Below, in pieces: positions 49,458 to 57,505 of a stretch of DNA of 64,000 nt. This DNA comes from Ralstonia pickettii DTP0602 (GTDB lineage: Bacteria > Pseudomonadota > Gammaproteobacteria > Burkholderiales > Burkholderiaceae). Where the stretch lies: contig CP006667.1 of the NCBI GenBank assembly GCA_000471925.1, positions 186,001 through 250,000 of the forward strand, given 5' to 3'. A program made the translations under genes and the position numbers. Below the pieces are notes generated by a model, which saw nothing but the letters and a program-made list of their open reading frames with translations, searched no databases and was not told the origin of the DNA. How positions within the stretch are numbered: the first letter of the stretch is position 1; each line of letters starts with the position of its first letter.

Positions 49458-50444
49458 TCAGTGCGCGCCATCCTCGCAGCGGCTGATCTCCACCGTCACG
49501 TGCACCAGTTCCTCGTGCACGGACAGCGCCTGCCGCACGCGTTGCGGCGTCAGCGCCTGGTCATGCGTCACCAGGCTGACGATGCAGGCGAACTTCTGCC
49601 GGCCTACGCGCCATACATGCAGGTCGGTCACGCTGGTAGGTTGCTCACCCTGGTTGTGGCCATGGTCGAGGCTCGCCAGCACCTCGCGCACTTCTTCCAC
49701 CACTGGGTGGTCCATCTCGCGGTCCAGCAGCACCGTGCCGCTCTGGCGCAGCAGGCCGATCGCCCACTTGCCCACCAGCGCCGCGCCCACCAGCCCCATC
49801 ACCGGGTCCAGCCAGGCCAAGCCCAGCCACCAGCCGCCGGCCAGCGCGACGAGCGCGAGCACCGAGGTCGCGGCATCGGCCAGCACGTGCATATAGGCGG
49901 CGCGCAGGTTGATGTCGTGGTGGTGCTGGCCGTCGTGGTCATGGTGATGGTGGCCATGCCCGTGATCGTGGCCATGATCGTGCCCGTGTGAATGCCCGCC
50001 GAGGATCAGCGCGCAGCCCAGGTTGACCAGCAGTCCCAGCGCGGTCACGGCCATGGCCTCGCGGTAGTGGATTGCCTGCGGGCTGAACAGCCGCTCGACC
50101 GAGCCCGCCGCCATCAGCGCCGCGATGCCCAGCAGGAACACCGCGCTGGCAAAGCCGGCCAGCACCTCGATCTTCCAGGTGCCGAAGGCAAAGCGCCAGT
50201 CGCCGGCATAGCGCCGCGCGGCCGCATAGGCAAAGGCCGACAGGCCGATGGCAAGGGCGTGCGAACTCATGTGCCAGCCATCGGCCAGCAGCGCCATCGA
50301 GTTGAACCAGAGGCCAGCGGCGATTTCCACCACCATGGTGACGGCGGTGATCGCCATCACCAGGCGCGTGCCGCGCTCGGCGGCGCGGTTGCCGGTGTCG
50401 AAGGCGTGGCTGTGGGTCCACGCGGACAGGTCGTGGGTGTGCAT
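49458..50444 (-). CDS. dmeF: Cation diffusion facilitator, DmeF-type Co/Ni exporter
   Basis: A 328-residue CDF transporter with six membrane segments. The metal-site motifs are LLADGWHMSSH (D55, H58) in the second segment and HVLADAATS in the fifth. A long His/Asp-rich cytoplasmic loop lies at residues about 151-176 (HSHGHDHGHDHGHG and on). The loop and the N-terminal MHTHDLSAWTHSHAF match DmeF, which exports Co(II) and Ni(II). No dmeR-type regulator was seen beside it. Confidence 0.9.
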   Translation of the reverse strand: MHTHDLSAWTHSHAFDTGNRAAERGTRLVMAITAVTMVVEIAAGLWFNSMALLADGWHMSSHALAIGLSAFAYAAARRYAGDWRFAFGTWKIEVLAGFASAVFLLGIAALMAAGSVERLFSPQAIHYREAMAVTALGLLVNLGCALILGGHSHGHDHGHDHGHGHHHHDHDGQHHHDINLRAAYMHVLADAATSVLALVALAGGWWLGLAWLDPVMGLVGAALVGKWAIGLLRQSGTVLLDREMDHPVVEEVREVLASLDHGHNQGEQPTSVTDLHVWRVGRQKFACIVSLVTHDQALTPQRVRQALSVHEELVHVTVEISRCEDGAH

Positions 50445-50695
50445 CGTCAGGTCCTGCTCAAAGCTTGAAGTCGGTCAGTCGCGACTCTGCGGGGCGGCCA
50501 TTCACTCAGGCAAGGGTAGCAGAGCACCAGTGCGCCAACGGCTACATCCCTGACGGGCGCAGGGGCGGGTAGCCGGCCCAGATTGATGAATGCCTGGAAC
50601 GAATGAGTGTCGCCAGAGGAAATCATTTCCATGGATTTCGTGATTACACTTAGCCATCGGACGCCAATGCCAGCGGCCAGCACAGGAGACAGACG

Positions 50696-51574
50696 ATGTT
50701 CGAAGGATTCACGCCGCACCGGATCGATTGCGGCGAGGTAACCATACACGCGGTGGCGGGCGGGCAGGGCCCGGGTTTGCTGCTGCTGCACGGCCACCCG
50801 CAGACGCATGTGATCTGGCACAAGGTGGTGCCGGTGCTGGCGCAGCACTTCACCGTGGTGGCGGCCGACCTGCGCGGCTATGGCGACAGCGACAAGCCCG
50901 CCGGCCTGCCTGACCACGCCAACTACAGCAAGCGCACCATGGCCGCCGACCAGCTCGCGGTAATGCGCGCGCTGGGTTTCGACCAGTTCAGCGTGCTGGC
51001 GCACGATCGCGGCGCGCGCGTGGCGCACCGGCTGGCGGTCGACCATCCCGAGGCCGTGCAAAAGCTGGTGACGCTCGACATCGCGCCCACGCTGGCCATG
51101 TACGAGCAGACCCACGAGGCCTTTGCCCGCGCCTACTGGCACTGGTTCTTCCTGATCCGCCCGGCGCCGTTCCCCGAGACCCTGATCGAGGCCGATCCCG
51201 CGCTCTACCTGCGCCAGACCATGGGCAGCCGCAGCGCCGGGCTGGCGCCGTTCACCGACGCCGCCATGGCCGAGTACCTGCGCTGCCTGAGCCTGCCTGG
51301 CGCCGCCCACGGCCTGTGCGAGGACTACCGTGCCAGCGCCTCGATCGACCTGGAACATGACCGCGCGGACCTCGCTGCGGGGCGCATGGTCGAGTGCGAG
51401 ATGCTGGCGCTGTGGGGCGAGCACGGCGCGGTGGGTCAGTGTTTCCGGCCGCTGGAAGCGTGGCGCGAGGTGGCGCGCCGGGTGCGCGGCCATGCGCTGC
51501 CGAGCGGGCACTACATCGCCGAAGAGATTCCTGAGCGCCTGCTCGAGGAAGTGCTGCCTTTCCTGCGCGGCTGA
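50696..51574 (+). CDS. Haloacetate (fluoroacetate) dehalogenase-type alpha/beta hydrolase
   Basis: A 292-residue alpha/beta hydrolase. Residues matching the characterised fluoroacetate dehalogenase set are all present: nucleophile D104 in HDRGARVAHR with R105 and R108 for the carboxylate, D128, the halide pocket H149-W150 (YWHWFF) and Y211 (CEDYRA), and H272 (GHYIAEE). These enzymes hydrolyse fluoroacetate to glycolate. It stands alone, divergent from dmeF, with no transporter or regulator beside it. Other alpha/beta hydrolases of this subfamily act on chloroacetate or epoxides. Confidence 0.88.
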   Translation: MFEGFTPHRIDCGEVTIHAVAGGQGPGLLLLHGHPQTHVIWHKVVPVLAQHFTVVAADLRGYGDSDKPAGLPDHANYSKRTMAADQLAVMRALGFDQFSVLAHDRGARVAHRLAVDHPEAVQKLVTLDIAPTLAMYEQTHEAFARAYWHWFFLIRPAPFPETLIEADPALYLRQTMGSRSAGLAPFTDAAMAEYLRCLSLPGAAHGLCEDYRASASIDLEHDRADLAAGRMVECEMLALWGEHGAVGQCFRPLEAWREVARRVRGHALPSGHYIAEEIPERLLEEVLPFLRG

Positions 51575-51685
51575 CGGCGCCGCCGGCTGCTGCTGCCTTG
51601 CGGCGCAGCCGGTTTCCTCATGCCGGGTAGGCCCGGCACCTTTCCAAGCGCCCGGTTTCTGGAAGCGGTGTGTTTTCCACGTTGT

Positions 51686-51716
51686 GAAATATCCCAGTGT
51701 TTCGCTGGGATATTTC
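51686..51716. repeat. Perfect 12-bp hairpin, AT-rich
   Basis: GAAATATCCCAG (51686-51697), loop TGTTTCG, CTGGGATATTTC (51705-51716). There is no T tract afterwards. It lies between the hydrolase and the AcrR-like palindrome and differs in base composition from the surrounding DNA. Confidence 0.65.
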
Positions 51717-51725
51717 CGACGCCCT

Positions 51726-51752
51726 TACATACATTCATGAATGGATGTATGA
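51726..51752. promoter_or_regulatory. AcrR/TtgR-like palindromic operator without a nearby efflux gene
   Basis: TACATACATTCATGAATGG followed by ATGTATGA is a near-palindrome whose halves match the known AcrR operator (TACATACATT...TGAATGTATGTA), with one extra G. No tetR-type regulator or RND efflux gene is beside it. The 51575-51971 gap holds only this site, the hairpin at 51686 and a possible 29-codon ORF. Confidence 0.5.
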
Positions 51753-51801
51753 TTCGGCGAAGAATTCACATTGCCACAACATCTTTGTTGTCGTTTCCGA
51801 G

Positions 51802-51891
51802 ATGAGCTACCGATTCATTGCCATTTGCCTCACCTCCTGGGTGGCCGTCTGCGCCACCGCGGGCTGGGTCGTCGAGCGCCTCTGGAGCTGA
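51802..51891 (+). CDS. Possible small single-span membrane protein (29 residues)
   Basis: ATG 51802 opens MSYRFIAICLTSWVAVCAT and ends VVERLWS, giving one hydrophobic segment flanked by Arg. It lies 50 bases after the AcrR-like palindrome. The ribosome site is weak (CCGAG). A chance frame is possible, and I recognise no family. Confidence 0.3.
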   Translation: MSYRFIAICLTSWVAVCATAGWVVERLWS

Positions 51892-51971
51892 CGCCGCGCC
51901 GGGGAGCGGCGCCGGTCATGCTCCCGCCAGAATAAAAAAAGCAGCACCCGAATCAGAAGAAGACGGCTCGC

Positions 51972-52538
51972 ATGCGTACCCTCACCGCCTTGCTCGACCG
52001 GCTGGCCAGTAAGGCTGCCATTGCCGTGGCTGCGGCATTTACCCTGTGCGGCACCGCCTACGCCGACCCCGCCGTGTACGTCGCCTTCGGGCGCGACCCT
52101 GGCCACGACATCAACAAGTACGAGATCGGGCTGAACTGAGATTCCGGCTTTGCCTGGGGCAATCCACAGGGGTGGCTGGCCAGGCTGCAGTGGGAAGTGG
52201 AACTGGCCGAGTGGAACACGCGCAGCGGCACCAACCGCCGCAACATCACCGAGCTGGGCTTCTCGCCGATCTTGCGCGTGGAAAAGCGCGGCGGCGCGCT
52301 GGTGCCGTTCCTGGAGGCGTCGGTGGGCGCGCGCGTGCTCAGCCATACCAGCACCTCCGACGAGCACCAGTTCAGCACCGCCTTCCAGTTCTCGGACATG
52401 ATCGGCGTGGGCGTGGCCTTCGGCCCCAAGCAGGCGGCCGAGGCCGGCTTCCGCTTCCAGCACATCTCCAATGCCGGTATCAAGAATCCCAACCCGGGCT
52501 CCAACTTCTACACCGGCTACCTGCGCTATCGCTTCTGA
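51972..52538 (+). pseudogene. pagL: Lipid A 3-O-deacylase (PagL), interrupted by an in-frame stop
   Basis: The frame starts MRTLTALLDRLASKAAIAV with a signal peptide cut after TAYA, then VYVAFGRDPGHDINKYEIGLN. There a TGA (52137-52139) stands where PagL normally has Trp (GLNWDSG). The same frame continues DSGFAWGNPQGW to the natural end YTGYLRYRF, including the active-site FQHISNAG (His and Ser of the catalytic dyad). PagL is an outer-membrane beta-barrel that removes the 3-O acyl chain of lipid A. One base change (TGG to TGA) accounts for the break. An IS605 end lies within 20 bases of the stop. Confidence 0.88.
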
Positions 52539-52568
52539 TTCTTTCCGTTGACATCCTCCCCGACCTGA

Positions 52569-54276
52569 AGAGGCTGTCGCGAAAGCCCATTGCCGATAAA
52601 ATCCGGTGACGCAACCCTGATGAAGAGATGAGCGATGAGCACGGCTCGCAAAGTACCATCACCGGACAGTAAGCGACACGATCTGTTTGGTGGAGTGCCG
52701 GCTCAAGATGTCAGACCCAGGCCAAACGCGTCGGATACGGGGCGCCGGTTTGTAACAGGCAACCCGCATGAGATTGTCTTGGGCACGACGCGCCTGGAGG
52801 ACTATCTGAAGCAGGCCGGTCAACGTGCACCATTTGTCGTAGCGCATTTGCTCGGACAGCAGGACTGGCTACCGTTCGAGCAGCGCTATGCTGCCACCGG
52901 GCGCGCTCCTTACGCGCCGCGCCTGATGATGGGTCTGATCCTGTATGGCGTCATGCAGGGTGTTCATTCGCTGCGTGAGCTGGAGCGACTGGCGCGGCTG
53001 GACTTGGGATGCATGTGGGTGACGGGGGGTATCGCGCCGGATCATGCCAATATTGGTCGCTTCATCGTATTGCACGAGGACTCGCTGACCCAGGGGTTTT
53101 TTGAATCGCTCACGCGCGCGATATTGAAAGCCAGTGGTTCCCGCAGCACGCGTTTAGCCGGCGACGGCACCGTCATTGAAGCGGCTTGCTCGCACTACAA
53201 TTTGCTCAAAGAAGAGGCCGTCAAGGCGCGCGCAGAAGCCGCTATCAAAGCGGTTGAGCGGGCCCCCGATGATCAGGCCGTGCAACAGGAGCTGCAACGC
53301 AGCAAACAATGCCAGGACATCTTCGAGCAGCGTCAAGCCGCTCGCCACAGCCATGGCAAGAGCAGCGAGACCTTGCGCATCAGCGCCAGCGAGCCGGAGG
53401 CCATGGTGCAGCGCCTGAAGCGCGGACGGGGGTTCGCGGCATCGTACAAACCGTCGGTTCTGGCCAACGAAGATCGGATCATCACGGCCCTCGCGCTGGA
53501 CGCGTCAAGTGAAACACAGGTAATCGCGCCAATGCTGGATCAAAGCGCACGAGTGACGGGTGCGCAGGCAGAAGAAGTGTTGCTCGATGCAGGATACTTC
53601 GACGATGAGGTCATCGAAGCGACGTTTGCGCGTGATGTCAGCCTGTTATGCCCGGATGGGCAGTGGCCTGCAAAGACGCGGGAAGAAGGACTGTTCCATA
53701 AAAGCGCCTTTGACTATTACCCGCAAACTGACACCTATCATTGCCCCGCCGGGCAAACGCTGATTCTGCTGAGCAAGTGCGAACAAACACTGCGAAGCCG
53801 AGAGCATCGTGTGTATGGGTCTACGAGCTGCGAGGGATGCCACTTACGCGCGAACTGTACGAAAGCGGCGCAGGGACGACGCATCAAACGCTACCCCGAG
53901 GATGAGCATCGCGAGGCGCTTCGCCTCGTGATGCAGCATCCTCAGGCGCGACGCATTTTCAGCCAGCGCAAGGCGATCGTGGAACCTGTGTTCAGCAGCT
54001 TGCGTTCCCAGCAGGGGCTGAATCGCTTTCGGCGCAGTGGGCTCCAGGCGGTCAAGCGGGAATTCGCCTTGCATGTCCTGGCGCACAACCTGTCCCGGGC
54101 AGTTGCCCTGTCGAGGGCATTATTTACCCTTTTGTATGCGGTTCTACGCGGCCTCCACGAGGTTGCGCACTGTTTTTTGGGACAGATTCTTCGATTTGTT
54201 GGCTCGCGCCAAAGCAATCACATCCACGCTCGGACTTGAATTGGACGCACAGCAGAAACGTTTTGCGACGGCCTCT
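52569..54276 (+). mobile_element. IS1182-family insertion sequence
   Basis: A 1.7 kb element bounded by 16-bp terminal inverted repeats AGAGGCTGTCGCGAAA (52569-52584) and TTTTGCGACGGCCTCT (54261-54276), matching at 14 of 16 positions. It contains one transposase gene. I see no clear target duplication. It sits in the loop of the IS605 right-end hairpin. Confidence 0.85.
52635..54239 (+). CDS. IS1182 family transposase
   Basis: A 534-residue DDE transposase. The N-terminal region contains YAPRLMMGLILYGVMQGVHSLRELE. The acidic residues are visible as LAGDGTVIEAA, LLDAGYFDDEV and KAIVEPVFSSLR. A Cys-rich strip CEGCHLRANC is typical of the family. The frame is complete, so the element may be active or recent. 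Confidence 0.93.
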   Translation: MSTARKVPSPDSKRHDLFGGVPAQDVRPRPNASDTGRRFVTGNPHEIVLGTTRLEDYLKQAGQRAPFVVAHLLGQQDWLPFEQRYAATGRAPYAPRLMMGLILYGVMQGVHSLRELERLARLDLGCMWVTGGIAPDHANIGRFIVLHEDSLTQGFFESLTRAILKASGSRSTRLAGDGTVIEAACSHYNLLKEEAVKARAEAAIKAVERAPDDQAVQQELQRSKQCQDIFEQRQAARHSHGKSSETLRISASEPEAMVQRLKRGRGFAASYKPSVLANEDRIITALALDASSETQVIAPMLDQSARVTGAQAEEVLLDAGYFDDEVIEATFARDVSLLCPDGQWPAKTREEGLFHKSAFDYYPQTDTYHCPAGQTLILLSKCEQTLRSREHRVYGSTSCEGCHLRANCTKAAQGRRIKRYPEDEHREALRLVMQHPQARRIFSQRKAIVEPVFSSLRSQQGLNRFRRSGLQAVKREFALHVLAHNLSRAVALSRALFTLLYAVLRGLHEVAHCFLGQILRFVGSRQSNHIHART

Positions 54277-54420
54277 AAAGGCCGGAGATTCCTACGGCGC
54301 TCAGACGCGGCATTGAGCCGCCCCTGAGTCGCTTCGGTGGGTTCCTGCTGCTGACGCCGTTACCGCAGCGTTCACTTCACAGGCTAACCGGGCGTGTCCC
54401 GCCCTTAGAACATTGATCGC
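54277..54420 (-). ncRNA. Predicted TnpB guide RNA (omega RNA) scaffold, 3' end cut by the IS1182 insertion
   Basis: In IS605 elements the guide RNA scaffold spans the 3' end of tnpB and the right-end sequence, with the guide lying beyond the element. Here the segment on the minus strand runs from the end of tnpB through the conserved GAGCGCCGTAGGAATC to the first arm of the right-end hairpin (CTCCGGCCT) and then meets IS1182. The 5' limit is a guess from family knowledge. Confidence 0.4.
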
Positions 54421-55524
54421 GCCGACCACATCGGCATTTTCCTCGAAACCGCATTCCACGCACTCGAACCGGGCTTGCGTCTGGCGGTTGTCTGCCGAGA
54501 CATGGCCGCAGCATGGACAGGTGCGGCTCGTGTTCTGCGGTGGCACGGCGATGAGATAGCCACCGTTCCAAGCCAGCTTGTAGTCCAGTTGGCGGCGGAA
54601 CTCGAACCAGCCTTGATCGAGGATGGCTTTGTTCAGGCCGGACTTGGCCTGAACCTGCTTACCCGGCTGTTCGGTGCTGCCTGCCGCCGACCTGGACATG
54701 TTCCGTACCTGCAAGTCCTCGATACACACCATCGCGTGGTTTTGGCTGATCGTGGTGGAGCACTTGTGGAGGTAGTCGCGGCGGGCATTGCCGAGGCGGG
54801 AATGGATGCGCTGGACGCGGGCTTTCGCCTTCTTCCAGTTGCTGCTGAACTTCTGTTTGCGGCTCATCGCCTGCTGCGCTTTGCGCAGCGCGGCCTCTTG
54901 CCGCTTGAAACTATTGAGCGGGGCGTAGAACGTCCCGTCCGAAAGCGTGGCGAACCGGGCAACACCCATGTCGATGCCAACCGCGCTCGCGGCCCGTGCC
55001 ACCGGCTGTTCGACCTCACGCTCGGTCTGGATCGACACGAACCACTTGCCGCAGGACTGCCTGACTGTGACGTTCTTCACCACCCCCAGCACCTTCCGGC
55101 TGTTGCGGTATCGCAGCCAGCCCAGCTTGGGCAAAAACAGGCGGCTGCTGGCCTGGTCGAGCTTGATTTGCTTGGGGTCGGGATAGCGGAAACTGTCGCC
55201 CTGGCCCTTCTTCTTGAAGCGCGGAAAGTCGGCCCGCTTGGCAAAGAAGTTGCCGTAGGCCCGCTCCAAATCTTTGAGCGTCTGTTGCAGCGGATGAACC
55301 GGCGCATCGGCCAGCCATGCGGTTTCCGTGCTGTTGCGCCACTCGGTGAGCAGCTTGCACAGTCCGGCGTAGCCGTGCTTCTTCTCGCCTTGCTCGTAAC
55401 GAGCCTTCTGCAACGCCAGTGCCTTGTTGAAGACGAACCGGCACGAACCAGAAAAGCGACGCATGTTGCGTTGCTGCTCGCCGGTCGGCATCAGTTCGTA
55501 CTTGTAGGCTTGAAGTCGCTGCAT
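54301..55524 (-). CDS. tnpB: RNA-guided endonuclease TnpB (IS605/InsQ family)
   Basis: A 407-residue TnpB with the helical N-terminus (RFVFNKAL), RuvC catalytic residues D185 (GIDMGV), E269 (VCIEDLQV) and D365 (NADVVGAINVL). The zinc finger is C336/C339 and C355/C358 (CPCC, CVEC). All key residues are intact, so it is likely an active nuclease if its guide RNA is made. It is divergent from tnpA, with 22 bases between the starts. Confidence 0.94.
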   Translation of the reverse strand: MQRLQAYKYELMPTGEQQRNMRRFSGSCRFVFNKALALQKARYEQGEKKHGYAGLCKLLTEWRNSTETAWLADAPVHPLQQTLKDLERAYGNFFAKRADFPRFKKKGQGDSFRYPDPKQIKLDQASSRLFLPKLGWLRYRNSRKVLGVVKNVTVRQSCGKWFVSIQTEREVEQPVARAASAVGIDMGVARFATLSDGTFYAPLNSFKRQEAALRKAQQAMSRKQKFSSNWKKAKARVQRIHSRLGNARRDYLHKCSTTISQNHAMVCIEDLQVRNMSRSAAGSTEQPGKQVQAKSGLNKAILDQGWFEFRRQLDYKLAWNGGYLIAVPPQNTSRTCPCCGHVSADNRQTQARFECVECGFEENADVVGAINVLRAGHARLACEVNAAVTASAAGTHRSDSGAAQCRV

Positions 55525-55546
55525 GGCTCAATCATACTCTTGGCCT

Positions 55547-55960
55547 ATGAGCGATGACAACGATATTAGACACGGAAGACACTGCGTTTTCAAGATGCAC
55601 GTCCATTTGGTCTTCGTGGCGAAATACCGCCGCAGAGTGTTCGACGGCGACGCCATCAAACGGCTGCGCGCCATCTTCGACAAGGTATGCGCCGACTTCG
55701 AGGCGAACTTGATCGAGATGGACGGCGAGGACGATCACGTTCACCTGCTGGTGGAGTACCCGCCAAAGGTCGCGGTGTCGAATCTGGTGAACAGCCTCAA
55801 GGGCGTGTCCAGCCGCCTGCTGCGCAAGGAAAGACCCGACATCCAGAAACGCTACTGGAAGGGCGTGCTGTGGTCGCCTTCCTACTTCGCATCATCCTGT
55901 GGCGGCGCACCGATCGCCATCGTGCGCCAGTACATCGAACAACAGCAGACCCCACACTGA
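55547..55960 (+). CDS. tnpA: IS200/IS605 family TnpA Y1 transposase
   Basis: A 137-residue single-strand transposase. The HUH motif is HVHLL (H64, H66) and the catalytic Tyr is Y129 in IVRQYIEQQ. ATG 55547 (MSDDNDIRHG) suits the family; a longer frame from 55523 is less likely. It would excise and insert the element as single-stranded DNA by reading the end hairpins. Confidence 0.93.
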   Translation: MSDDNDIRHGRHCVFKMHVHLVFVAKYRRRVFDGDAIKRLRAIFDKVCADFEANLIEMDGEDDHVHLLVEYPPKVAVSNLVNSLKGVSSRLLRKERPDIQKRYWKGVLWSPSYFASSCGGAPIAIVRQYIEQQQTPH

Positions 55961-56038
55961 AAAGCCAACAGCAAGGACGGCTACGCCGTCCGCGCTATCC
56001 TTCCCCACCATGAATGGCGGGGCTTGCCGCGCACTGGG

Positions 56039-57505
56039 TCAGGCCGCCGCCGCGCGCGGCGCCTGCGCCAGGCTGTCGAAGAACTGCCATAGCTGCGGCG
56101 CATCGCCGGTGGCCACGTTGAAGCGGATCCACGGCGAATCGGTCTCGTCCGGCTCGAAGTACGAGCCCGGGGCCAGCCAGATGCCGTGTTCCAGCGCCAG
56201 CGTCGCCAGCCGGTTGCCGTGCAGCGGCTCGCCGCGCCTGCTGGCCTGCAGCCGCGCCTGTACCGCCTCGCTCAGCCGCGCCCACGCGAACATCCCGCCT
56301 TCCGGGCGCAGCAGCACTTCCAGCCCGTGGGCTTCCATCTTCTCGGTCACACGGTCCTGCTGCGCGCGCAGCCGTTCGGCCAGCGCCGCCACGTGGCGGC
56401 CGTAGTGGCCGCTGGTCAGCACCGAATAGACCAGCCGCTCCGTCACCTCCGACGAGGTCAGGCCGACCGCCATCTTGGTGCGCGCGAAGGCCTTGGCCAG
56501 GTCCGGGCTGGCGGCGAGATAGCCGACGCGCAGCGAAGGCGTGATGGTCTTGGAGAACCCGTTGACGTAGACCACCTGCGACAGTCCGTCCATGGCCGCC
56601 AGCATCGGCGAGCCGGCTGGCGCCAGTTCGCGATAGATGTCGTCTTCCACCACCAGCAGCCGGTGTTGCTCGGCCAGTTGCAGCACGCGGAAGGCGTTCA
56701 TGCTGCTCAGGCTGGCGCCGGTCGGGTTCTGCAGCACGGTGTTGACGAACAGCGCGCGCGGCGCGTGCGCGCGGATGGCATCGTCCAGCGCATCGGTATC
56801 GAGCCCCGCCGCCGAGCGCGGCACGCCGACCACGCGCAAGCCAGCCAGCCGCAGGATCTGCAAGAGATTGCAGTAGCAGGGGGATTCCACCAGCACCGTG
56901 TCGCCGGCGCGCAGCAGCGTGCGCACCACCAGGTCCAGCGCCTGCGTCGCGCCCTGCGTCAGCACCACCTGCTGCGCCTGCAGCGGGATGCCGTACTGGC
57001 CCAGGCTGGTGGCGATATGCTCGCGCAGCGGCGCGAAACCGTACGGGTGGCCATAGCCCGATAGTTGCGCCGCCGGTACCCGCGCCGAGGCGCGCATGGC
57101 CTGGTGCAGCCCTTCCTCGTTGAGCCAGTCGCCGGGCAGCCAGCCCGCGCCCGCCTTGATCGGCACGGAGTGGTCGGCAAACACATCGGAGAGCAGCCAC
57201 GCCGCGTTCAGCCCCGGTGCTTCCCATTGCGGCGCGCGTGCGTGGCCGGTGGGCGCATGGCGGTGCGCCACGGTATAGCCCGAGCCGGCACGCGCCGCCA
57301 GGTAGCCCAGCGCGGTCAGCCGGCCATAGGCCTCGGCCACGGTGAAGGTGCTGACGTGATGGTGCTGCGCAAAGCGGCGCACCGAGGGCAGCGCGGTGCC
57401 GGCGCGCAGCGCGCGCTGCTCCACCAGCTCGGCGATACCGGCCACGATCTGCTCGGTCAGGGTTTCGCCGCCGCGGCGGCTGCGGGTCAGGTTCAGGGTC
57501 AGCAT
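56039..57505 (-). CDS. MocR/GabR-type regulator (GntR DNA-binding + aminotransferase domains)
   Basis: A 488-residue protein: an N-terminal winged helix (ALPSVRRFAQHHHVSTFTVAEAYGRL, residues about 38-63) is followed by a fold-I PLP domain with the Lys in VNGFSKTITPSLRVGYL. It is divergent from the omega-amino acid aminotransferase gene, so it very probably regulates beta-alanine or related catabolism. ATG 57505 was chosen; the longer frame to 57850 crosses the shared promoter region. Confidence 0.92.
   Translation of the reverse strand: MLTLNLTRSRRGGETLTEQIVAGIAELVEQRALRAGTALPSVRRFAQHHHVSTFTVAEAYGRLTALGYLAARAGSGYTVAHRHAPTGHARAPQWEAPGLNAAWLLSDVFADHSVPIKAGAGWLPGDWLNEEGLHQAMRASARVPAAQLSGYGHPYGFAPLREHIATSLGQYGIPLQAQQVVLTQGATQALDLVVRTLLRAGDTVLVESPCYCNLLQILRLAGLRVVGVPRSAAGLDTDALDDAIRAHAPRALFVNTVLQNPTGASLSSMNAFRVLQLAEQHRLLVVEDDIYRELAPAGSPMLAAMDGLSQVVYVNGFSKTITPSLRVGYLAASPDLAKAFARTKMAVGLTSSEVTERLVYSVLTSGHYGRHVAALAERLRAQQDRVTEKMEAHGLEVLLRPEGGMFAWARLSEAVQARLQASRRGEPLHGNRLATLALEHGIWLAPGSYFEPDETDSPWIRFNVATGDAPQLWQFFDSLAQAPRAAAA

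Follow-up and report, generated by a model that had tools for sequence, protein, structure and literature searches.

Probable targeting of hairpin-forming palindromes, many of them IS200/IS605 ends, by a clade of IS1182-family insertion sequences

We propose that one clade of IS1182-family insertion sequences probably inserts at the axis of hairpin-forming palindromes, mostly the ends of IS200/IS605 elements and short derivatives of them, duplicating two base pairs of the loop. The transposase likely recognises the folded hairpin. The clade includes an element in the window, by which we mean the whole 64,000-nucleotide stretch of Ralstonia pickettii DTP0602 that was analysed (contig CP006667.1, positions 186,001 to 250,000). 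This element interrupts an IS200/IS605 element, hereafter IS605, exactly at the symmetry axis of its right-end hairpin.

The IS1182 element occupies positions 52569-54276 of the plus strand (1708 bp), and two more full copies in the same genome match it at 99%. Its ends are 16-bp terminal inverted repeats, read directly in the sequence, at 52569-52584 (left, plus strand) and 54261-54276 (right, minus strand), which agree at 14 of 16 positions and differ at two. The sole gene (52635-54239, plus strand) encodes a 534-aa transposase that scores 274.1 bits against the curated IS1182 model of NCBIfam (NF033551, cut-off 270) and matches the Pfam families DDE_Tnp_1_6, DUF772 and DDE_Tnp_1. The element therefore has two features used to define the IS1182 family, terminal inverted repeats and the type of DDE domain expected.

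The interrupted IS605 lies on the minus strand at 52548-56041, approximate limits taken from the sequence common to its copies. It has the components of an IS200/IS605 element: a Y1/HUH tnpA of 137 aa (55547-55960, plus strand; Pfam Y1_Tnp, E 6.7e-46), a tnpB of 407 aa (54301-55524, minus strand; NCBIfam guided_TnpB, 366.9 bits) and hairpins near both ends. The left-end hairpin (56003-56022, minus strand) is uninterrupted, and its equivalent is the target at two loci in relatives, L017 and L023. Just outside, a PagL-domain reading frame (52197-52538; Pfam E 5.8e-32) stops about 10 bp before the IS605 boundary, and an in-frame stop upstream suggests that this gene is broken.

The outer arm of the right-end hairpin (52557-52566, minus strand) and the inner arm (54279-54288, minus strand) pair at 10 of 10 positions. 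The original prediction had located the IS1182, the arms and the loop bases, and had counted nine of nine minus-strand pairs with two G-U pairs. Re-reading of the sequence bore out the coordinates and the pairing, with the wobbles as two G-T pairs and the tenth pair gained on extension. Across the junction the order is CCCCGACCT (52558-52566), GA (52567-52568), the IS (52569-54276), AA (54277-54278) and AGGCCGGAG (54279-54287). This pairing exceeds chance: strand-coherent 10/10 pairing occurs at 22 of 60,379 window positions (0.036%). Moreover, the uninterrupted right end exists twice in the same genome. Four copies of the IS605 are present at 99-100%, and in two of them the right end reads ...CTCCGGCCTTCAGGTCGGGGAG..., placing both arms together as the prediction had anticipated. 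The window flanks, joined with one GA, match the intact IS605 at 100% over 91 bp with no gap, and the joined flanks of a second insertion, L003, do so at 100% over 89 bp, likewise gapless. Consequently, the IS1182 entered with duplication of 2 bp at the axis and without loss of sequence. What had been described as about four loop bases (GA + AA) is instead a 2-bp target duplication, of which the intact copies carry a single GA; the right-hand copy, AA rather than GA, has one substitution. The imperfect duplication at L022 (AA/GA) shows the same change as the GA/AA of the window, C to T on the TTCA strand (n=2); deamination of a loop cytosine left exposed might explain it.

Three full copies of the IS1182 are present in the genome, including that of the window. 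The L003 copy interrupts the corresponding hairpin of a different IS605 copy and faces the other way, and so represents a separate insertion event. The third (L002/L065) lies in a hairpin adjoining the motif TTGCTTCGAGAAACCCCG. A matching motif is found upstream of a TnpB gene in three other elements of this genome (L071, L076 and L081), which identifies the L002/L065 hairpin as of the left-end type. Its arms pair at 7 of 10 positions, with an IS605-type end on only one of the two flanks. A Tn5-type transposase gene (L065:3894-5288) directly adjoins this third copy, where the target IS605-type end is one-sided.

Insertion sites of relatives come from 19 loci found by scanning named genomes and from further whole-genome searches. 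The axis and the 2-nt duplication were defined from the three own-genome copies (two score 10 and the third 7), and a threshold of 8/10 strand-coherent pairs was fixed after 16 sites had been seen. Among two-sided insertions outside this genome, 16 of 17 lie on the axis of a palindrome with at least 8/10 pairs, a level reached by 2.18% of the 60,379 window positions and by 1.87% of 73,730 positions in 26 fetched loci. The other copies and relatives are accordingly not at random sites, which was the second check that the prediction invited. With the own-genome copies included, 18 of 20 two-sided sites reach the threshold. The exception outside this genome is L136, from Colwellia, with 5/10 pairs and no hairpin.

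The position of the axis is also precise. When the junction was slid along its own joined flanks (80 bases each way, 161 positions), the true position was best or tied best at 11 of 16 sites. The two 2-nt copies agree at 13 of the 17 sites outside the genome and at 15 of 20 overall, and disagree at 5 of 20; at L135 the duplication comprises four bases (TTTA) rather than two. Empty sites could be compared at several loci. At L066 and L067, respectively, 35 and 34 distinct subject alignments cross the junction, gapless in the four listed for each. At L028 the comparison matched its own neighbourhood only. For 8 of 16 sites no empty-site match spanning the junction was present among the fetched loci, and the duplication there is thus read from the junction alone.

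Most of these facts would also follow if a symmetric transposase dimer read a linear palindrome. According to this alternative, which we consider unlikely though deserving of weight, the transposase reads a double-stranded palindrome with a preferred half-site, roughly a C-rich arm followed by T-NN-A, and folding is irrelevant. The half-sites do share a C-rich, T-NN-A flavour, and many of the IS605-type hits have CCT-TC-AGG or something close to it. Both orientations are seen, as a symmetric linear site allows. Further, arms swapped among 13 sites pair at 6.30/10, above the window mean of 4.46, and still reach at least 8 in 24% of 312 swaps. However, own arms pair at 8.77/10, and widely different arm sequences remain complementary, among them the REP-like L025 and L028, the AT-rich L038, and L068. 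The distribution of wobble pairs is also at odds with a purely linear site. At 9 of the 11 sites with at least two, all wobbles share a strand, versus 356 of 784 background palindromes (45%), although two of the hits belong to a single hairpin family and the coherence may mirror a constraint of IS605 itself. L068 pairs at 10/10 with three wobbles, all on one strand, and no IS605 gene or end motif was found in its neighbourhood. As DNA, the tnpB-sense strand of the intact right-end hairpin folds at -5.0 kcal/mol and the opposite strand at -1.8. Even the former is not unusually stable, since a fold as good was reached by 28 of 200 shuffles.

Together, the wobble, fold and L068 data favour a one-strand hairpin. 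IS605 hairpins are biased in any case and the numbers are small, so recognition of the folded rather than the linear palindrome is something that we infer. The prediction that the IS recognises folded hairpins therefore divides in two: targeting of hairpin-forming palindromes is well supported (16 of 17 sites), and the folded form itself keeps a conditional standing. If the hairpin is what is read, a DDE transposase would bind an extruded hairpin or cruciform, the two IS ends would join on opposite strands, each at the 5' side of the 2-nt loop centre, and the 2-bp duplication would then arise by gap repair.

Counting one-sided copies, we tallied 32 insertions: IS605 genes accompany 6 and IS605-type end motifs 12, 3 are REP-like, and 11 fall in none of these classes. 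IS605-type ends thus make up 18 of 32, although the one-sided right end L130 (Massilia cavernae) may complete L128 or L129, in which case 32 and 18 would each be one too high. Twelve rows with one readable end enter this tally only and stand outside the palindrome count. The 11 other sites include hairpins of IS605-like appearance (L069, L022, L135, L144 and L132) that have none of the fixed motifs. One left-end motif, LE-b, is loose, with four window matches on both strands, at least one of them a real left end; among sites that have no IS605 genes it was decisive for L033 only. The REP motif is short, with 24 window matches on both strands, making the REP-like class weak. TnpA or TnpB genes adjoin six sites, four at right ends (L001, L003, L020 and L026) and two at left ends (L017 and L023).

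The genome of Massilia cavernae contains 41 matches to left-end motifs and 25 to right-end motifs. Many form pairs with a spacing of about 300 bp, and we read these from sequence as a putative family of short IS605-derived elements of about 300 bp (L066, L067, L101-L124). L066 and L067 are insertions in the left-end hairpins of such elements, and intact versions free of the IS are frequent. A second, diverged clade element in this species (L028; 69% identity in alignment) sits at the axis of a REP-like palindrome.

IS605 ends and REPs lie for the most part between genes, in dispensable DNA. Insertion could be indiscriminate, with copies in IS605 ends seen since selection spares harmless places. 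We regard this as very improbable. Neutral insertion at random would leave copies throughout IS605 and the spacers, whereas the axis position is exact to the base and is used in both orientations. Further, the window density predicts about 2,960 palindromes in the genome that match the right end in quality; were all chosen equally, finding two of the three copies among the four right ends would have P ~5e-6, a value calculated after the fact from the density of one 64-kb sample.

Carriage of the IS1182 by IS605 copying, which would reduce the two right-end hits to one event, draws on the near-identity of TnpB among the IS605 copies (98.5-100%), but it is contradicted by the opposite orientations of the IS relative to IS605 in the window and L003, and by further hits in different IS605 groups, ends and genera; we give it almost no credence.

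Equally hard to credit is a target consisting of the folded right-end guide RNA or its transcription. The stronger fold of the right-end hairpin on the tnpB-sense strand agrees with such a target, and the original prediction had suggested that the RNA of the tnpB strand is what is conserved. However, left-end hairpins beside tnpA (L017 and L023) are used as well as right ends, which speaks against this reading and makes an RNA unnecessary, and REP-like repeats are also used. IS200/IS605 transposition is described as strand-specific and single-stranded in the available portions of PMC8266576, and single-stranded DNA bound by TnpA accounts equally well for the strand bias in pairing. No Rfam family reached its gathering threshold in positions 50000-57500 of the window. 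Full-length matches of the intact IS605 right ends to HgcC (L005:3138-3266 and L007:1471-1629) scored 23.2 and 22.1 bits against a threshold of 50 and were taken as chance.

Insertion into a right-end hairpin should have consequences for the IS605 that receives it. A split IS200/IS605 right end should stop use of that end by TnpA and break the right-end guide RNA. In two of the four IS605 copies, the IS1182 cuts tnpB off from the outer part of the right end, and such a copy would no longer serve TnpA as a substrate or supply an intact right-end guide RNA. We tentatively raise the possibility, which at present seems to us more doubtful than probable, that the DDE clade (769 relatives at E <=1e-60) is a hyperparasite of HUH elements, homing at base precision to IS200/IS605 and REP hairpins extruded as single strands and thereby knocking out TnpA/TnpB. 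The nested insertion leads to a testable rule, namely that a DDE clade lands at the end hairpins of another transposon class with base precision in several genera. It offers a natural assay for whether a DDE transposase can read DNA shape, and it suggests a way in which TnpB loci would be inactivated in nature.

Within the IS1182 family, IS1272 is already published as a hairpin-targeting element; different here are the duplication at the loop centre and the enrichment of IS200/IS605 ends. As far as the available portions of two papers describe them (Furi 2016, PMC4923244; Wan 2017, PMC5678879), IS1272 targets hairpins and deletes all or part of the stem-loop with no target duplication, and 3 of 13 older copies have targets other than inverted repeats (PMC5678879). 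Both papers cite a review by Siguier and colleagues for palindrome-targeting IS1182 members. IS1272 and TnSha1 of Staphylococcus resemble the window IS in family and in using hairpin-capable inverted-repeat targets with little common primary sequence, and one TnSha1 target was entered in both orientations. An inverted-repeat target of this type is found at 16 of the 17 other two-sided sites. In contrast to the stem-loop loss of IS1272, the window clade keeps the stem and duplicates two loop bp; intact copies match gaplessly, with one extra 2-bp copy. It therefore represents a loop-duplicating counterpart to the stem-deleting IS1272. In the parts of PMC5678879 that we could consult, loop duplication is drawn only as a possible pathway (Fig 13, pathway c), and those of both papers make no mention of an association with IS200/IS605 ends for IS1272/TnSha1. 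In a search of titles and abstracts, outside subscription journals and ISfinder, we found no report of the combination of hairpin targeting by an IS1182 member, loop duplication and IS200/IS605-end enrichment.

Other elements share parts of this behaviour. According to the accessible sections of Tobes and Pareja 2006 (PMC1525189), ISPsy8, ISPa11 and ISRm22 insert in palindromic repeats. In the case of ISPsy8, a predicted hairpin is entered at its symmetry axis, and a 3-base direct repeat is present. However, the REP-targeting IS of that study belong to five families (IS3, IS110, IS4, IS256 and IS5), not IS1182, and target REPs, not IS605 ends. IS4321/IS5075 and the IS1111-attC group are, like the window clade, specialised on ends or folded sites of another mobile element, but use DEDD transposases guided by seekRNA, as outlined in PMC11187229, whereas the window element has a DDE transposase and no Rfam family at threshold. 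TnpA-REP, which is related to the IS200/IS605 transposase, binds REP repeats, and both enzymes recognise the same hairpin class as single-stranded DNA (PMC8266576, as excerpted). These are HUH enzymes acting on their own ends or REPs; in contrast, the IS1182 enzyme is an unrelated DDE transposase that uses them as a target.

Searches of species genomes, own genome included, gave a DNA match in 3 of 60 of the genus, one of just 39 bp. With at most three candidates scored per genome and the own genome again included, relatives were found at E 1e-60 in 2 of 398 genomes of the family and 1 of 399 of the order, and at E 1e-40 in 1 of 369 of the class and 2 of 398 of the phylum. Plasmids gave no near DNA match and one record at E 1e-60, and none of 58 pattern matches in viral contigs encoded a relative. 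Among metagenome proteins, 769 of 7,997 candidates scored were relatives at E <=1e-60. Most of the 120 listed (P0001-P0120) have a longest contig under 3 kb, approximately the length of the IS, as is expected where assemblies break at a multi-copy element. A further plasmid locus, L144, at 49% identity, was included in the clade counts. Outside the counts are fragments that have no recognisable IS end (for example L015/L056 in genome G040) and a Colwellia match of 25% identity (L055).

Distant plasmid IS1182 members (26-29% identity) served as a contrast set, nine being taken of 60 listed and eight left after removal of L149, which has ambiguous terminal repeats. At the best of six offsets, 2 of 8 reach 8/10 pairs (chance 5.4% each). 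Distant members mostly have no long junction palindromes, and the trait therefore looks like a property of the window clade. Four of these distant elements (L145, L148, L150 and L151) have GGCC at both junctions, which may be a 4-bp palindromic target with duplication.
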